From assembly GCF_000412695.1 (NCBI RefSeq), contig NC_021499.1, forward strand, positions 682,001 through 746,000: a stretch of DNA of 64,000 bases. Reading direction: 5' to 3'. Below are positions 20,409 to 62,337 of this stretch, in pieces; position 1 is the stretch's first letter; each line of letters opens with the position of its first letter. A program made the translations under genes and the position numbers. The DNA comes from Pseudomonas resinovorans NBRC 106553. Its GTDB lineage: Bacteria > Pseudomonadota > Gammaproteobacteria > Pseudomonadales > Pseudomonadaceae. The notes beneath the pieces are model-generated. The model saw only the letters and a list, made by a program, of their open reading frames with translations, had not been told where the DNA came from and made no database searches.

Positions 20409-20432
20409 AAAAAAGGCACCCGAAAGTGCCTT
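20409..20432 (-). terminator. Terminator of the OprD-type porin gene
   Basis: A stem AAGGCAC/GTGCCTT (20413-20419 with 20426-20432) follows the porin stop on the minus strand and is continued by a T run (A run on the plus strand). A second GC-rich hairpin lies at 20441-20470. Confidence 0.8.
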
Positions 20433-36399: not shown

Positions 36400-37062
36400 C
36401 TAAAGTTCGGCGATGACTCGGTACTCCGCCCCCAGTTCATCCGCCAGCTTGCGCGCCCGCCCCAGGCGCACCGGGCCGCCCTCGATATCCACCAGCAGCG
36501 TCGGGCAGCCCATCGGGTCCAGCGCCGGCCACTCCTTCAAACGCCCATCGGTGAGGATCAGCACCCGCTGCTCCTCCGCCGGCTTCTGCCGTTGCCGGCG
36601 CGTCAGCCACTGGGCGGATTGTTGCAGGGCCTCGATCAGCGGGGTGCCGCCACCGGCGCCTAGTTCGGCGAGCCAGTGGTGCAGGGCCGGGGAGGCCTTG
36701 CTGCCCTGCCACAGCCACTGCGGCTGGCGGCCGGTGGCGTGGAGCACGGCGAGGCGCGCACGCTGGCGGTAGGCGGTCTCGAAGACGCCGGCCAGCAGGC
36801 CTTTGGCCTGGGTTAGGGCGCCGTGGCGGCGGGTGGAGGCGGAGGCGTCCACCAGCACCAGCCAGAGTTCGTCGGGTTGCCGGCTGCGGGGCGCGCGGAT
36901 CAGGTCCGCAGCCTGGCGCGGGCGCCCGCGCAATAGCGTCGGCAACCATTGGATGGCGCCGGCGTTTCCGCTGCGGCGCGCACCGCTGCGGCCATTGCCG
37001 AGGGCGCCGGGCCTGGACCCCGCACCCGCCCCTGTGACCGTGCGCGGGCGGATGCTCAGGGC
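36400..37062 (-). CDS. VWA-domain part of the ChlD-type cobalt chelatase (probably made by -1 frameshift)
   Basis: The frame encodes a von Willebrand A domain with the MIDAS motif DASAS ([16 protein letters not shown]), [12 protein letters not shown] and [11 protein letters not shown]. The only conventional start in the 39 codons before residue MPTLLRG is a TTG at 36945, yet those codons ([33 protein letters not shown], given here only as content) look like coding sequence and continue back to the end of the ChlI frame, where a slippery heptamer lies. The likely product is a ~552-residue ChlI-VWA fusion acting with CobN in cobalt insertion. An independent protein from TTG 36945 (181 residues) is the alternative. 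Confidence 0.75.
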
Positions 37063-37068
37063 TTTTTT
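37026..37068 (-). promoter_or_regulatory. Candidate programmed -1 frameshift site
   Basis: On the minus strand the ChlI frame ends CCA AAA AAG CCC TGA. The heptamer A_AAA_AAG (37062-37068) is the same as in dnaX. Ten bases after it lies a stem CCGCCC/GGGCGG (37046-37051 with 37026-37031). The -1 frame reads straight into the VWA domain. Confidence 0.7.
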
Positions 37069-38057
37069 GGCCAGCGCGGCAACTCGCGTCGTTCACCCAT
37101 GGGCACGGTTTGCGCCGGTAGTTCGCCCCACTGGCCTTCGCCAGTGGACGGCTGGGACTGTGCGTTGGCGGACGGGGATTCCGGTGGCTGCGCGGCGGGC
37201 GGCGGGGTGTGGGTGCGGCGATGGGCGAGGGCGAAATGCTCGACGGCGTCGATGTCCTCGGCCTCGATGCGTTCGACGCCGCGCCAGGCGGCATGGGCGC
37301 GGGCGGCGCGCAGCCAGACCAGGTCGGCGCGCAGGCCGTCGACCCCGGCGGCGAAGCAGCGCTGGGCGATCTCGTCCAGGGCGGCATCGTCCAGGGGAAT
37401 GGCCGGCAGCCGCGCGCGGGCGTCCTGGCAGCGTTGTGCCAGGGCCTGCTGCAGGTTGCTCCAGCGGGCGAGGAACGCCTGCGGGTCGGTATCGAAGGCC
37501 AGTCGACGGCGAACGATCTCGGCGCGCTCGGCCGGTTGCGGCTGGCCGCCCTGCAGGACCTTGAGGCCGAAGCGGTCCAGCAGTTGCGGGCGCAGTTCGC
37601 CCTCTTCGGGGTTCATGGTGCCGATCAGCACGAAGCGCGCCGGATGCTGGTGGGAGATGCCATCGCGCTCCACCTGGTTGATGCCGCTGGCGGCCACGTC
37701 CAGCAGCAGGTCCACCAGGTGGTCGGGGAGCAGGTTCACTTCGTCTACGTAGAGCACGCCGCCGTGGGCCTTGGCCAGCACGCCCGGGGAGAAGCGTGCG
37801 CGACCTTCGCCGAGGGCCGCGTCCAGGTCGAGGGTGCCGACGATGCGTTCCTCACTGGCGCCCAGCGGCAGGGTGACGAAACTGGCGTCTTCCAGCAGGT
37901 CGGCGACGCCACGGGCCAGGGTGGACTTGGCCATGCCACGGGGGCCTTCGATCAGTACGCCGCCGATGGCGGGGTCGATGGCGGCGAGGCAGAGCGCCAA
38001 CTTCAGCTCGTCGGAAGCGACGACGGCGCTCAGTGGGAAATGGGGAAGCTCGGACAT
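37056..38057 (-). CDS. AAA+ magnesium/cobalt chelatase subunit, ChlI type
   Basis: 333-residue AAA+ ATPase of the ChlI/BchI class. Walker A is GPRGMAKST (38-46), Walker B VLYVDE (101-106), then [18 protein letters not shown] and [20 protein letters not shown] near 165 (sensor/arginine region). A proline-rich linker starts near 285, as between ChlI and VWA parts in ChlD proteins. It presumably powers cobalt insertion by CobN, because CobS and CobT are absent from the window. Frame ends two codons after a slippery heptamer. Confidence 0.92.
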
Positions 38058-39665: not shown

Positions 39666-39750
39666 TGTAGGTTGGGTAGAGCCTGCGAAACCCAACGCGC
39701 GGGCTCAACTCTGAAACGTTGGGCTTCGCTGCGCTCTGCGTCAACCTACT
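39666..39750. repeat. Family A intergenic palindrome, copy 4
   Basis: About 85 bases from TGTAGGTTGGGTAGAGCC to GTCAACCTACT, between the convergent DAHP synthase and cobN genes. It overlaps the cobN TAG stop (39746-39748). Confidence 0.85.
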
Positions 39751-42700
39751 GCTCTTCGCTGTCGAGCAACAGGTTCTCGATGGCCTCGCGGTAGTCGCCG
39801 GGGTTTTCCCAGAGGCCGCGCTGCTGGGCTTCCAACAGGCGCTCGGCGATATCGCGCAGGGCCTCGGGGTTGTGCTGGCGGATGAACTCGCGGGTGTCGT
39901 GGTCCAGCAGGTAGGCATCGGCCAGCAGTTGGTACTGGTGGTCGTCCACCAGTTGGCTGGTGGCGTCGAAGGCGAACAGGTAGTCCACGGTGGCGGCCAG
40001 TTCGAAGGCGCCCTTGTAGCCGTGGCGCTTCATCCCGGCGATCCATTTGGGGTTGGCCGCCCGTGAGCGCACCACCCGCGCCAGTTCTTCCTTGAGCGAG
40101 CGGATACGCGGCAGGTCCGGCTGGCTGTGGTCGCCGTGGTAGCTGGCGACCCGCTCGCCGCGCAGGGTTTCGGCGGCGGCGAGCATGCCGCCCTGGAACT
40201 GGTAGTAGTCGTTGGAATCGAGAATGTCGTGCTCGCGGTTGTCCTGGTTCTGCAGCACCGCCTGCAGCCGTTGCAGGCGCTGGGCGAAGCGCTCCCGTGC
40301 CGGGGTGCCGTCGTTCTTCGCGCCGTAGGCGTAGCCACCCCAGTTGAGGTAGACCTCGGCCAGCTCGGCGCGGTCCTGCCACTGGCGTTCCTCGATGGCG
40401 CCCTGTACGCCGGCGCCATAAGCGCCAGGCTGGGCGCCGAACACCCGCCAACCGGCTTGCAGGCGCGCATCCTCGATGGCCAGGCCGTCCGCGGCCAGGC
40501 GCGCGCTTTCCTGTTTCACCCGTGCGGCCAGGGGGTTCATGTCGTCGGGTTCGTCCAGTTCGGCGACCGCTTGCACGGCGGCGTCGAACAGGCGGATGAG
40601 GTTGGCGAAGGCGTCGCGGAAGAAGCCCGACACCCGCAGGGTCACGTCCACCCGTGGGCGATCCAGCAGCGACAGCGGCAGGATCTCGAAGTCTTCCACC
40701 CGCTGGCTGCCGGCCTGCCACACCGGGCGCACGCCCATCAGTGCCAGGGCCTGGGCGATGTCGTCGCCGCCGGTGCGCATGGTGGCGGTGCCCCACACGG
40801 AAATGCCCAGCTGGCGCAGGTGGTCGCCCTGGTCCTGCAGGTGGCGTTCCAGCAGCAGGCTGGAGGACTGGAAGCCCAGGCGCCAGGCGGTGGGCGTGGG
40901 CAGGTTGCGCACGTCCACGGTGAAGAAGTTGCGCCCGGTGGGCAGTACGTCGAGGCGCCCTCGACTGGGTGCGCCGCTGGGGCCGGGGGGGACGAAGCGG
41001 CCGTCCAGCGCCGCCAGTACGCCGCCGATCTCGGACGCGCCGCAGGCGTCCAGGGTGGGCGCGATGACACGGCGCAGGCTGTGGATAACCCCATCGCTGG
41101 CGGGCCCGAGGGAGCCGAAGTCCAGGGTCTCGATCAGCCCCATGGCCAGCAGCTCGAGGCGCTCGCGGGTATCGCCATTGCTGCGCCAGGGTTCGTCGCT
41201 GATGGCTTCCAGCAGCATCGGGCGCGGGCCTTCCCAGGGCTCGGCCCAGGCCAGGTCCAGCGGGTCGGCGCCAAGGCCGAGGTCGCTGGCCAGGGCGCGC
41301 AGCAGGCTGGCGTTGGCGCCCTTGCCATCGCCACGGGGGATGCGTACCAGGGACAGCAGGGTGTCGTTGCGCAGGCGTCCGACCGGGGATTCGCCGAACA
41401 CGTGCAGGCCGTCGCGGATCTGCGACTCCTTGAGGTCGCAGAGGTAGGCGTCCAGTTGTGGCAGCCAGCTGTCCGCGTCGTCATTGAGGCTGAGGTCGAG
41501 CTCGCGGTCGAGGGCGGTGGCTTTCACCAGCTCGAGGATTTCCCCGCGCAGTTGCACGGCGCGGCGCGGGTCCAGCAGGGAGGCGTCGTAATACTCGTCG
41601 GCCAGGCGCTCCAGGTCGCGCAGCGGGCCGTAGTTTTCCGCGCGGGTCAGCGGTGGCATCAGGTGGTCGATGATCACCGCCTGGGCGCGGCGCTTGGCCT
41701 GGGCGCCTTCGCCGGGGTCGTTGACGATGAAGGGGTAGATGTTCGGCAACGGGCCCATGACCGCATCCGGCCAGCACTCGGCGGACAGCCCCACGCCCTT
41801 GCCCGGCAGCCACTCCAGGTTGCCGTGCTTGCCCACGTGGATCAGCGCGTCGGCGGCGAACACCTCGCGCAGCCAGAAATAGAAGGCCAGGTAGCCATGG
41901 GGCGGCACCAGGTCGGCGTCGTGGTAGATGGCCGCCGGGTCCAGCTGGTAGCCCCGCGCCGGCTGGATGCCGACGAAGGCCAGGCCGAAACGCAGGCCGG
42001 CCACCATCATGCGACCGCCACGGAACATCGGGTCCTGCTGCGGTTCGCCCCAGCGCTCCGTCACCGCGCGCTGGTTGGCCTCGGGCAGGCGGGCGAAGCA
42101 GGCGAGGTAGTCGGCCAGCGCCAGGCTCTGGGCGCAGGGCCGCGCGTCCAGGCTGTCGAGGTCGTTGCTGACCCCGCCCAGCAGGCTGTGGATAAGTGCC
42201 GTGCCGCTGTCCGGCAGGCCGGCGACGGGATAACCCTCGGCTTCCAGGGCGCGGAGGATGTTCAGCGCGGCGGCCGGGGTGTCCAGGCCCACGCCGTTGC
42301 CGATGCGGCCGTCGCGGGTCGGGTAGTTGGCCAGGATCAGCGCCACGCGCTTGTCGGCGTTGGCCTTGCTCGCCAGCGCGCACCAGCGTCGCGCCAGCGC
42401 GGCGACGAAGTCCATGCGCTCGCGGTGCGGCAGGTAGCAGACCACGTCGCTCTGGCTGCGCTCGCTGCGCCAGGCCAGGCCCTTGAAGCTGATGGGGCGG
42501 GTGATGATGCGCCCATCCAGTTCCGGTAGGGCGATGTGTATGGCCAGGTCGCGCGGGCCCAGGCCTTGTGGGTTGGCTTCCCAGAGCGGCTGGTTGTCCA
42601 GGGAGCAGATGGCCTGCAGCACCGGGATATCGCGACGGAAGGGGCGCAGGGCGGGGGCCTCGGGGTTCGACTGGGCGAACCCCGTGGTGTTGATGATCAG

Positions 42701-43480
42701 CGCCGCGTCGGCGGCGTCCAGCCAGTCTTCCACCGCCACCAGGCAGGCGGCTTCCTTGAGGCTGGCGACGGCGATGGGCAGGGGATTGAGGCCCTGGGCG
42801 GCCAGGCGTGTGCAGAACTCGTCGATGAAGGCGGTGTTCGCCGCCTGCAGGTGGGTGCGGTAGAAGAGCAGGGCTGCCACGGGCCGATCGGGCTGCCATT
42901 CGGCCCGCCAGTGTTCCAGGCCAGCCGGGCGAATGCGCGGGTGGTACAGGGTGACCCGGGGCAGGGTCTGGGGCTCGCGCCAGGGGTAGTCGCGGCCCAG
43001 CCCCTGGCTGGCCAGGTAGTTGAACAATTGCCGGGCGTTGTCCATGCCGCCCTGGCGCAGGTACTGCCAGAGGCGCTCGGCCTGCTCGGCCGGGACATTG
43101 CACAGGCCGGCCAGCTCCGGGTCGGGGCGGTCGTCGCCGGGCACCAGGATCAGGGTCGCACCGCATTCGGCCAGGGCCACCAGTTGCTCGATGCCGTAGC
43201 GCCAATAGCCGACGCCGCCATGCACCGAAACGAGGATGACCTTGGCGTGCCGCAGCACCTCGTCGACGTAGAGGTCCACCGAGGCGTGGTTCTGCAGCTG
43301 CATGGGGTTGGCCAGGCGCAGGCTCGGGTAGTCCTCGGGCAGCTCGCGGGCGGCCTCGGCCAGCAAAGCCAGGTGGGAATCGCCGCTGCAGAGGATCACC
43401 AGCTCGGCGGGCGTCTGGGCCAGGTGGGCGATGCCGTCGTCGGGGACGAAGCCGCCGGGTTGGGTGCGTAGCAGGTGCAT
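39746..43480 (-). CDS. cobN: Cobaltochelatase large subunit
   Basis: 1244-residue CobN/ChlH-family protein that binds hydrogenobyrinate a,c-diamide and inserts cobalt (EC 6.6.1.2). Family landmarks are SVHGGVGYWRYGIEQL near residue 90, LANYPTRDGRIGNGVGLDTP near 400, HVGKHGNLEWLPGKGVGLS near 560, PFIVNDPGEGAQAKRR near 595, and WGGYAYGAKNDGTPARERF and the tail NPKWIAGMKRHGYKGAFELAATVDYLF near the end. ATG 43480 gives normal length and has a GAGAGGG Shine-Dalgarno. It is downstream of cobW, separated by two repeats. Confidence 0.97.
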   Translation of the reverse strand: MHLLRTQPGGFVPDDGIAHLAQTPAELVILCSGDSHLALLAEAARELPEDYPSLRLANPMQLQNHASVDLYVDEVLRHAKVILVSVHGGVGYWRYGIEQLVALAECGATLILVPGDDRPDPELAGLCNVPAEQAERLWQYLRQGGMDNARQLFNYLASQGLGRDYPWREPQTLPRVTLYHPRIRPAGLEHWRAEWQPDRPVAALLFYRTHLQAANTAFIDEFCTRLAAQGLNPLPIAVASLKEAACLVAVEDWLDAADAALIINTTGFAQSNPEAPALRPFRRDIPVLQAICSLDNQPLWEANPQGLGPRDLAIHIALPELDGRIITRPISFKGLAWRSERSQSDVVCYLPHRERMDFVAALARRWCALASKANADKRVALILANYPTRDGRIGNGVGLDTPAAALNILRALEAEGYPVAGLPDSGTALIHSLLGGVSNDLDSLDARPCAQSLALADYLACFARLPEANQRAVTERWGEPQQDPMFRGGRMMVAGLRFGLAFVGIQPARGYQLDPAAIYHDADLVPPHGYLAFYFWLREVFAADALIHVGKHGNLEWLPGKGVGLSAECWPDAVMGPLPNIYPFIVNDPGEGAQAKRRAQAVIIDHLMPPLTRAENYGPLRDLERLADEYYDASLLDPRRAVQLRGEILELVKATALDRELDLSLNDDADSWLPQLDAYLCDLKESQIRDGLHVFGESPVGRLRNDTLLSLVRIPRGDGKGANASLLRALASDLGLGADPLDLAWAEPWEGPRPMLLEAISDEPWRSNGDTRERLELLAMGLIETLDFGSLGPASDGVIHSLRRVIAPTLDACGASEIGGVLAALDGRFVPPGPSGAPSRGRLDVLPTGRNFFTVDVRNLPTPTAWRLGFQSSSLLLERHLQDQGDHLRQLGISVWGTATMRTGGDDIAQALALMGVRPVWQAGSQRVEDFEILPLSLLDRPRVDVTLRVSGFFRDAFANLIRLFDAAVQAVAELDEPDDMNPLAARVKQESARLAADGLAIEDARLQAGWRVFGAQPGAYGAGVQGAIEERQWQDRAELAEVYLNWGGYAYGAKNDGTPARERFAQRLQRLQAVLQNQDNREHDILDSNDYYQFQGGMLAAAETLRGERVASYHGDHSQPDLPRIRSLKEELARVVRSRAANPKWIAGMKRHGYKGAFELAATVDYLFAFDATSQLVDDHQYQLLADAYLLDHDTREFIRQHNPEALRDIAERLLEAQQRGLWENPGDYREAIENLLLDSEEQ

Positions 43481-43499
43481 GGCGGGACCCTCTCCCCAA

Positions 43500-43521
43500 C
43501 CCTCTCCCTGAAGGGAGAGGG
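43500..43521. repeat. Short C/T-rich palindrome before cobN
   Basis: CCCTCTCCC and GGGAGAGGG (43500-43508 with 43513-43521) form a perfect 9-bp stem. A further TCTCCCC copy next to it is the complement of the cobN Shine-Dalgarno region, so the element can affect cobN translation. Confidence 0.65.
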
Positions 43522-43557
43522 GCCAGTTCGGTGCGTGCGGTCGTGGCTGGGTGGCTC

Positions 43558-43630
43558 CGTAGGATGGGTTGAGCGAAGCGATACCCATCGATATCGCATC
43601 GTGGGTATCGCAGGCTCAACCCACCCTACG
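43558..43630. repeat. Family A intergenic palindrome, copy 5
   Basis: About 73 bases from CGTAGGATGGGTTGAGCG to CTCAACCCACCCTACG, nearly the same as the copy at 20279. It fills the cobW-cobN gap. Confidence 0.85.
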
Positions 43631-43638
43631 GTCGTGGG

Positions 43639-44691
43639 TCAGGCCAGCGCCGTGCGCAGTTCGTTGGCGATGGCGGCCTGGTCCAGTTCCTGGCCGATCA
43701 CCACCAGGCGGGTGCCACGGGTTTCGTCTTGCAGCCACTTGCGGTCGAAGTGCTTGTCGAAGCGCTTGCCCACGCCCTGGATCAGCAGGCGCATGGGCTT
43801 GCCGGGGATGGCGGCGAAGCCCTTGATGCGCAGGATGGCGTGGTGCTCCACCAGTTGGCCGAGGGCTTCGAGCAGGGCGCCTTCGGCCACTTCCGGCAGG
43901 TCGAGGTGGAAGGAGTCGAACTCGTCGTGGTCGTGGTCCTCGTGGCCTTCGTGGTCATGGTGGGTGGGGCGGCTGTCGATGTGCAGCTCGGCCTCGGCGT
44001 TCAGGCCCAGCAGGATGTCCAGCGGCAGCTTGCCGCTGCTGGCTTCGATGATCTTCACCGCCGGCGGCAGCTCCTCGGCCACCTCGGCGCGCACGGCGGC
44101 CAGGGCGTCGGCGTCGAGCAGGTCGGCCTTGTTCAGTACCACCAGGTCGGCGCTGGCCAGCTGGTCCTCGAACAGCTCGTGCAGGGGGGATTCGTGGTCG
44201 AGGTTCGGGTCCTGGCGGCGCTGTTCGTCCACCTGCTCGGGGTGGGCGGCGAAGGTGCCGGCGGCCACGGCCGGGCTGTCGACCACGGTGATCACCGCGT
44301 CGACGGTGCAGGCATTGCGGATTTCCGGCCACTGGAAGGCCTGCACCAGGGGCTTGGGCAGGGCCAGGCCGGAGGTCTCGATGAGGATCTGGTCGAGGTC
44401 GCCGCGACGGGCCACCAGCTCGCGCATCACCGGGAAGAACTCTTCCTGCACGGTGCAGCACAGGCAGCCGTTGGCCAGCTCGAAGACACGGCCCATGGCT
44501 TCTTCTTCGCTGCAGCCGATGCTGCATTGCTTGAGGATTTCGCCGTCGATGCCCAGCTCGCCGAACTCGTTGACGATCACCGCGATGCGGCGGCCCTGGG
44601 CGTTGTCCAGCATGTGGCGGAGCAGGGTGGTCTTACCGGCGCCGAGGAAGCCGGTGACGATGGTGACGGGGAGTTTGGCCAGGGTTTTCAT
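43639..44691 (-). CDS. cobW: CobW-type metal chaperone GTPase
   Basis: 350-residue G3E-family GTPase, a cobalt chaperone for the chelatase. Walker A is GFLGAGKTT (14-22), the metal site CLCC at 76-79, and the guanine motif NKAD lies near 180. A His/Asp-rich stretch (HHDHEGHEDHDHDEFDSFH) near 240-260 precedes the C-terminal domain. ATG 44691 (MKTLAKLPVTIV) is preferred to an upstream in-frame start inside the leader. It is the first gene behind a cobalamin riboswitch. Confidence 0.94.
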   Translation of the reverse strand: MKTLAKLPVTIVTGFLGAGKTTLLRHMLDNAQGRRIAVIVNEFGELGIDGEILKQCSIGCSEEEAMGRVFELANGCLCCTVQEEFFPVMRELVARRGDLDQILIETSGLALPKPLVQAFQWPEIRNACTVDAVITVVDSPAVAAGTFAAHPEQVDEQRRQDPNLDHESPLHELFEDQLASADLVVLNKADLLDADALAAVRAEVAEELPPAVKIIEASSGKLPLDILLGLNAEAELHIDSRPTHHDHEGHEDHDHDEFDSFHLDLPEVAEGALLEALGQLVEHHAILRIKGFAAIPGKPMRLLIQGVGKRFDKHFDRKWLQDETRGTRLVVIGQELDQAAIANELRTALA

Positions 44692-44794
44692 GCGCGCCTC
44701 TGCGTGGTCGGTCGGCGGGCATGACGAACGCAGCGGGACTCGGCCCGCGCAACGGATTCGCCACCGGATCACCCCGCCCGGTTGTCTGGAATAT

Positions 44795-49439: not shown

Positions 49440-49459
49440 GCACTTGCCCGACGAACAAA

Positions 49460-49490
49460 AAAGGCGCCCGCAGGCGCCTTTCTGTGTTTC
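49460..49490. terminator. Terminator of the epimerase operon
   Basis: AAAGGCGCC and GGCGCCTTT (49460-49468 with 49473-49481) form a 9-bp stem around CGCA, with A residues before and a T-rich run after, so it may act in both directions. Confidence 0.82.
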
Positions 49491-61368: not shown

Positions 61369-62337
61369 ATGGGTGAGTTCGAGCTGATCCGTCGTTTCTT
61401 CGCCTCCGCCGCTTGCGCGACCGGGGGCGAAGGCATTGCCCTTGGCATTGGCGACGACTGCGCCCTGCTGCAATTGCCCCCCTTTGATCAACTGGCGGTT
61501 TCCACCGACAGCCTGGTGGCCGGTGTGCACTTCCCGCTGGACGCCGATCCCTACCTTCTCGGCCAGCGCGCCCTGGCGGTTTCCGTCAGCGACCTGGCAG
61601 CCATGGGCGCCGCGCCCGTCGCCTTCACCCTTGCCCTGACCCTGCCCGAGGCCCGTGCCGACTGGCTGGAAGCCTTCGCCAATGGCCTCTGCGCCATGGC
61701 CCGGGGCTGCGGCATCGGCCTGGTGGGAGGGGACACCACCCGTGGCCCGCTGAGCCTGACCCTCACCGTCTTCGGCCGCGTGCCCGCCGGCCAGGCCCTG
61801 ACCCGTGCCGGTGCGCGGCCTGGCGACCTGCTCTGCGTGGGCGGCAGCCTGGGTGATGGCGCTGGCGCCTTGCCGCTGGTGCTGGGCGAACGCCAGGACA
61901 ACAGCGCGCAGGCGCAGTACCTGCTGCAACGCTACTGGGCACCGCAACCGCAGCTGGACCTCGGCCAGGCGCTGCGCGGGCTGGCCACGGCGGCGCTGGA
62001 CATCTCCGACGGTCTGCTCGCCGACTGTGGCCATATCGCTCGCGCTTCGAAGGTGGCATTACTGGTGGACGCTGCGCGCGTGCCCCTGTCCGCCGCCCTC
62101 GAAGGGCTTTTTTCCAGGGAATTCGCCCTCAATTGTGCGCTGGCCGGTGGCGACGACTACCGGCTCGCCTTTACCCTTCCCGCCGACGCGCTGGCCAGCA
62201 TCCAGGCCGACTGGCCTGAGGTGGCGGTGATCGGCCGGGTCGAGGCGGGGCAGGGCGTGCATCTGCTGGATGCCAGCGGCGCCGAGCTGCAGCCGCCGGC
62301 ACTGGGTTATCAACATTTCGGGAGTCAAGGTGACTGA
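61369..62337 (+). CDS. thiL: Thiamine-monophosphate kinase
   Basis: 322-residue ATP-dependent kinase forming thiamine diphosphate (EC 2.7.4.16). Landmarks are FELIRRFF at residues 4-11, GIGDDCALL near 27, AVSTDSLVAGVHF near 43, VSVSDLAAMGAAP near 71, LVGGDTTRGPLS near 117 and ALDISDGLLAD near 210. It overlaps pgpA by eight bases. Confidence 0.96.
   Translation: MGEFELIRRFFASAACATGGEGIALGIGDDCALLQLPPFDQLAVSTDSLVAGVHFPLDADPYLLGQRALAVSVSDLAAMGAAPVAFTLALTLPEARADWLEAFANGLCAMARGCGIGLVGGDTTRGPLSLTLTVFGRVPAGQALTRAGARPGDLLCVGGSLGDGAGALPLVLGERQDNSAQAQYLLQRYWAPQPQLDLGQALRGLATAALDISDGLLADCGHIARASKVALLVDAARVPLSAALEGLFSREFALNCALAGGDDYRLAFTLPADALASIQADWPEVAVIGRVEAGQGVHLLDASGAELQPPALGYQHFGSQGD

Follow-up and report, generated by a model that had tools for sequence, protein, structure and literature searches.

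Frameshifting in the gene studied here has been described before. The passages on magnesium chelatase genes in a 2013 genome scan (PMC3711429) give a cluster of 23 genes with a -1 frameshift, Pseudomonas included, and report 63, 40 and 10% frameshifting in E. coli reporters for three cassettes of the cluster; the sites in the cassettes of that test contained 7, 9 and 11 A. According to the section on this gene in a 2016 review (PMC5009743), which names Pseudomonas, A_AAA_AAR is under purifying selection, and the stem of P. protegens is printed there. A 2022 paper (PMC9227772) has an entry for P. aeruginosa in which both subunits of the cobalt chelatase come from fs-chlD. Since these parts of the three papers describe the gene, the finding presented below is correct and already known, Pseudomonas included, and the species of our window is one more instance. 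The sequence-only reading that preceded this work had mentioned that frameshifting was proposed for chlD-type cobalt chelatase genes, and the same passages bear this out. Beyond these three papers we add a wider conservation count, a test on the third-base A, the spacing of the helix, a census of the lysine tRNAs and the contrast with fused genes. A full-text literature search for PA2942 found no paper. A 2020 study by Antonov reportedly deals with the fs-chlD frameshift cluster.

The window, a stretch of 64,000 nucleotides from Pseudomonas resinovorans NBRC 106553, carries the gene on its minus strand. An ORF for a ChlI-like AAA+ protein of 333 aa, recognised from the reading frame and from profile matches, occupies 37056..38057 and ends with TGG CCA AAA AAG CCC TGA. 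The heptamer A_AAA_AAG (37062..37068, minus strand) lies across the codons CCA AAA AAG in a phase that permits a -1 slip on the two lysine codons, and the zero-frame stop TGA (37056..37058) is the second codon after AAG. The -1 frame has no stop from 37092 until TAG at 36400. Its share of a long product (36400..37062, minus strand) consists of a linker and a VWA domain with a DxSxS motif, presumably the MIDAS motif. The linker (36946..37062) is 39 codons long, contains no ATG, GTG or TTG, and its last residue is the W of a W..[TS]L motif. The first possible start in this frame is a TTG at 36943..36945 without a Shine-Dalgarno match, 39 codons past the slip and immediately 3' of the conserved W codon. 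A joined AAA+-VWA product would be 552 aa long. In all of this the sequence-only reading, which had described the end of the ChlI frame, the open -1 frame through 39 codons into the VWA domain, the lack of an ATG or GTG before that domain with a first TTG at 36945, and a short AAA+ frame besides one of about 552 residues, agrees with what we find. We interpret the gene as the fs-chlD of an aerobic cobalt chelatase that would give two products by programmed -1 frameshifting, with a probability of roughly 0.93.

The bare heptamer proves little, given that AAAAAAG is found four times on the two strands of the window where 0.97 would be expected by chance, and none of 100 shuffles has as many; conservation is what counts. 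The other copies are at 20409-20415 and 49457-49463 on the plus strand and at 62107-62113 on the minus strand.

The zero-frame ORF matches TIGR02442 (putative cobaltochelatase) with 412 bits, TIGR02030 (BchI/ChlI) with 324.7 bits and TIGR02031 with 238.4 bits, each below the curated cut-off, while AAA_lid_2, AAA_5 and Mg_chelatase are above their gathering scores. The -1-frame ORF gives 66.5 bits against TIGR02442, in the C-terminal part of that model, and from 36945 onward it is above the gathering score of Pfam VWA_2. The joined protein reaches 472.9 bits against TIGR02442, up from the separate ORFs; that it is still under the cut-off of 779.45 counts against our reading. TIGR01650 and TIGR01651 (CobS and CobT) give no match at E<=0.001 to either ORF or to the joined protein. 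On the same strand are the large cobalt chelatase subunit CobN, the presumed partner (39746..43588, minus; TIGR02257, 1739 bits, over the cut-off), and, as cobalamin cluster context, CobW (43639..44772, minus; TIGR02475, 564 bits, over the cut-off). A DAHP synthase on the opposite strand sits between CobN and the split chelatase gene.

To follow the slip site through relatives we collected 168 loci: one from each of the 83 genomes with a match at E<=1e-40 in a draw of 148 genomes of the family, five from the same order, and 80 from named genomes, the best 80 of at least 588 confirmed matches. By frame criteria alone, 142 are split, 20 are fused, four have another layout and two are cut. Six split rows shared the 500 nt round the stop with another row and were removed; of the 136 distinct split loci that are left, some are still near-copies. 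Six loci were counted neither as split nor as fused. Two have the heptamer on contigs that end soon after it (L012, L074), two end ahead of the slip site (L131, L135), and one from Corynebacterium (L164) lacks the heptamer, its -1 frame being short. The sixth, L167 from Cupriavidus basilensis OR16, has a slip site, a phased A_AAA_AAA, and its -1 frame closes 63 codons past the stop.

An alignment of homologues was the check that the sequence-only reading had proposed, and its outcome supports frameshifting. NNA_AAA_AAR is present in the slippery phase in 136/136 distinct split loci (AAG in 126, AAA in 10), no stop interrupts the -1 frame across the heptamer in any of them, and the zero-frame stop is the second codon after AAR in 135/136, with L121 as the exception. 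Outside the site, a phased A_AAA_AAR is found at five of 75015 codon positions of the same ORFs, two of the five within one longer A run. The first lysine codon is AAA in 136/136, compared with 158/547 lysine codons elsewhere in the zero frames. The codon before the lysines stands for seven amino acids (P 97, A 23, S 5, L 4, T 3, K 3, G 1), yet its third base is A in 136/136, a base found there in 3740/45049 codons (8%) elsewhere in the zero-frame ORFs; this indicates that selection acts on the bases and not on the protein. A frame break in a single genome can be a sequencing error or a sign of a decayed gene. Here the identical break is at the identical place in 136 distinct loci, and the phased heptamer is present in 83/83 gene-bearing genomes of the family draw (in L012 and L074 the contigs end soon after). 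With the relatives already refuting it, error or decay has a negligible chance of being the explanation. Two of the split genes come from records with other titles than Pseudomonas: L133 (titled Pantoea sp. Cy-639) is 71% identical to the gene of the window, and L125 (a Paucimonas MAG) is 73% identical and groups with P. putida in the tree. Perhaps these are misnamed records, or the gene was transferred.

The relatives also bear on whether two proteins could be made without any slip, the VWA part being begun anew after the ChlI stop by coupled reinitiation or from its own start, the TTG at 36945. In favour of this, the stop and the -1 ORF are close together, and an ATG, GTG or TTG lies between the slip and the W motif in 54/136 loci, in a few of them an ATG 7-9 codons on. 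However, there is no such codon before the W..[TS]L motif in the remaining 82/136, and in the 54 the first one is scattered from codon 1 to codon 36, with no Shine-Dalgarno match of >=5 nt at that first codon of each locus (0/54). The split loci thus have no conserved VWA start, which the proposed check had also called for. The TTG at 36945 would moreover cut off the W of a motif present in 136/136 split and 16/20 fused relatives, and reinitiation leaves the invariant phased A_AAA_AAR unexplained. We therefore consider a separate start very unlikely and programmed frameshifting the better reading.

Downstream of the heptamer, helix search and folding place a 10-bp stem with a 14-nt loop. The 5' arm GCATCCGCCC (37046..37055, minus strand) starts 6 nt past the heptamer and pairs with the 3' arm GGGCGGGTGC (37022..37031, minus strand). 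A GC stem had been noticed earlier at 37026-37051, ten bases on; a stem is indeed there, although that description took in only the inner part of the pairing 37055-37046/37031-37022, and the spacer is 6 nt. Minimum-energy folding of the 42-, 46-, 50-, 70- and 90-nt fragments after the heptamer yields this stem. For the 60-nt fragment a rival fold is better by 1.1 kcal/mol, and a rival fold is also preferred by a fragment of 67 nt in which the heptamer is included (z only -0.57).

Among the relatives we searched for the strongest ungapped helix, its start being allowed 3 to 10 nt after the heptamer. It begins 5-6 nt after the heptamer in 126/136 split loci, and in 126/136 the second position of the arm has a single partner with a pairing probability above 0.5. 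The median helix score is 25, and 1.4% of the control sites within these genes score at least as high. When codons were shuffled synonymously with the -1-frame protein kept, the helix was stronger than the shuffles at p<=0.05 in 102/136 loci (p 0.005 for the window). In the other 34 it was not. These comprise five loci of a side lineage (L026, L028, L084, L085, L140), the distant L027 and L029, and ten loci (L025, L075-L083) whose stem is seemingly bulged and so uncrossable by the helix finder; the rest have mostly p 0.055 to 0.15. In nine loci from Burkholderiales the helix sequences are quite different, the helix starts 3-7 nt after the heptamer, and 9/9 have p<=0.05.

Pair counts were made on an alignment of 112 of the 136 rows, leaving out 12 rows outside Pseudomonadaceae and 12 in which the stretch is identical to another row or too short. 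Over these rows 79.9% of the cells of a 12-pair stem are paired, compared with 30-51% for slid partners, and the covariation score is 0.137 against at most 0.114 for slid and 0.102 for shuffled partners. Changes on both sides are found in 38 cells of the stem, compared with 16.1 in shuffles, whereas one slid control (+2) is higher, at 53; the number of pairs changed on both sides is matched by 14/500 shuffles. RNAalifold predicts no pairs on all 112 aligned rows. It finds a stem in subsets of 53 TAG-type rows and of 11 genus rows, and no stem in the 56 TGA-type rows, the type of the window itself.

No Shine-Dalgarno-like stimulator above background is present upstream of the heptamer across the 136 loci; the anti-SD duplex is -2.9 kcal/mol in the window, with a median of -3.15 over the loci and a control median of -3.0. 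The run of A could instead make RNA polymerase slip, giving mixed mRNAs by transcriptional realignment, as is known at long A runs; the part of the 2013 scan on this point refers to runs of n > 7 (PMC3711429). The run is exactly six A in 123/136 loci, however, and eight or more in three, and the fixed codon phase with a helix at near-constant spacing suits a ribosome. Polymerase slippage is in our view even less probable than a separate start, and slippage of the ribosome is the reading that we keep.

In the family draw a ChlI-type gene (E<=1e-40) is present in 83/148 genomes and CobN over its cut-off in 84/148; the extra genome is G062, whose CobN runs off a contig end. In two genomes, G021 and G157, the CobN-like match stays below the cut-off and no ChlI-type gene reaches 1e-40. 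CobN in G017 (C1:3035631-3039355) consists of two abutting pieces in different frames with a 1-base overlap, which may be a frame error, decay or another recoding site. Neither CobS (TIGR01650) nor CobT (TIGR01651) is over its cut-off in any of the 148 genomes. In three genomes (G024, G098, G129) the CobS profile scores 329-520 bits (cut-off 558.55) and the CobT profile 255-263 bits (cut-off 759.05), and G024 and G129 carry the split gene besides. The sequence-only reading had called the CobS/CobT pair missing here, and in the genome of the window neither is over the cut-off, with CobN present at 1739 bits. The next best listed ChlI-type matches of this genome have 27.6 and 24.8 bits. On its second contig (G000:C2:101963-102901) an open frame matches the CobS profile with 125 bits, compared with the cut-off of 558.55.

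The lysine tRNAs of the same genome also suit the proposed slip. Rfam gives 70 tRNA places, and ARAGORN, which read 68 of them, finds UUU as the sole anticodon of tRNA-Lys, in two copies; the length of the other two places, 84 nt, is unlike that of a tRNA-Lys. The 2016 review links the slippery nature of A_AAA_AAG in E. coli to its having UUU as the only lysine tRNA (PMC5009743).

In 20 relatives the ChlI and VWA parts are fused in a single frame (L030, L087, L088, L136, L137, L139, L141, L143, L144, L145, L148, L151, L152, L154-L156, L158, L161, L163 and L166), and these naturally fused genes span the same junction as the split ones. The W motif stands ahead of the VWA domain in 16/20; it is absent from L148, L152 and L166, and L144 reads X over the linker and the start of the VWA domain. 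CobN is over the cut-off in 20/20 of their genomes, and none of the 20 has a second ChlI-type match at 1e-12 beyond the fused gene (completeness is known for 3/20 in both counts). A strong CobS-profile match (396-533 bits, below 558.55) is found in 6/20 and a weak one in one genome, so that most of these genomes seem to be without a recognised small subunit. Since CobN is there without a second match of the ChlI type, it may be that the short product is dispensable. The long form alone might then suffice for cobalt insertion, and Pseudomonadaceae and Burkholderiales would keep the stop with its slip site as a means of regulation or of setting the dosage, tuned for example by the hairpin; we offer this as a speculation, rather unlikely on present evidence. 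No convincing mirror-image slip site of the dnaX kind is present in the 20 fused loci. In L088 (genome G048), at about residue 283 and close to the linker, a phased A run is followed seven codons later by a -1 stop; the gene contains several other A runs, and in so A-rich a gene this is probably chance. Phased A runs followed by a -1 stop after 6-18 codons are also present in L087, L151 and L166, but far from the linker.

A tree of the AAA+ parts was built from 56 sequences, 36 of the 136 split loci and all 20 fused ones, and has several long branches. Five changes between the split and the fused layout are needed on it, and its starred branches force at least two. Six Pseudomonadaceae copies (L026, L028, L084-L086, L140) are placed together with those of Burkholderiales and Zoogloeaceae, a grouping that suggests gene transfer. 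This second lineage keeps the slip site, and in 5/6 of its members the helix is not beyond codon shuffles. One fused gene, L148 from Acidovorax sp. SUPP3334 (genome G176), is nested among split ones and has no W motif; the CobN match of that genome reads through two TAA stops. These oddities may be due to decay or to draft errors.

Taken together, the conservation, the spacing, the co-occurrence with CobN, CobS and CobT below cut-off and the UUU-only tRNA-Lys make programmed -1 frameshifting very likely. According to our model, ribosomes that stay in frame would pass A_AAA_AAG by one codon and stop at the next, giving the 333-aa AAA+ protein, which would take the place of the small subunit (CobS/ChlI). 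A fraction of the ribosomes would be held up by the hairpin 6 nt downstream, where the lysyl-tRNA UUU could re-pair from AAA/AAG to AAA/AAA. Having slipped, they would continue in the -1 frame to the 552-aa AAA+-VWA protein, a stand-in for the medium subunit (CobT/ChlD), and both products would work with CobN in loading cobalt during B12 synthesis. What we infer from these features of the sequence is slippage in vivo with its rate, a part for the hairpin in it, the use of the products as two subunits, and CobN as their partner. The gene would be a clean and deeply conserved case of programmed frameshifting in which one bacterial gene supplies two subunits of a B12 enzyme. The fused relatives with CobN and no second ChlI-type match turn the need for the short form into a question that can be tested.

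Compared with the CobNST enzyme, the presumed roles are the same as those of CobS and CobT, AAA+ small and medium subunits working with CobN, whereas the genome of the window has neither TIGR01650 nor TIGR01651 over the cut-off. The fused cobaltochelatases (Oceanospirillaceae, Halomonadaceae, Psychromonas and others) have the same order of AAA+, linker and VWA, with the W motif in 16/20 and CobN in 20/20, and differ in having no junction stop, no convincing slip site and no evident short product. E. coli dnaX has the same A_AAA_AAG, a stem downstream and a sole UUU lysine tRNA, going by passages on dnaX in PMC3711429 and PMC5009743. There the slip leads to the short product, whereas here it would lead to the longer one, and the Shine-Dalgarno-like stimulator upstream in dnaX has no evident counterpart in the window. 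The closest system is the fs-chlD cluster itself. The window has a ChlI-like AAA+ ORF followed by a VWA ORF in the -1 frame, a conserved phased A_AAA_AAR, RNA structure downstream (but none from RNAalifold on the whole alignment), and CobN in the genome with no separate small-subunit gene over the cut-off. Going by the published passages on the cluster, nothing of substance differs, the window being of the A6G form and the 2013 cassettes having 7, 9 and 11 A; the gene, the A_AAA_AAR site, the -1 direction, the downstream stem and Pseudomonas as a bearer are the same.
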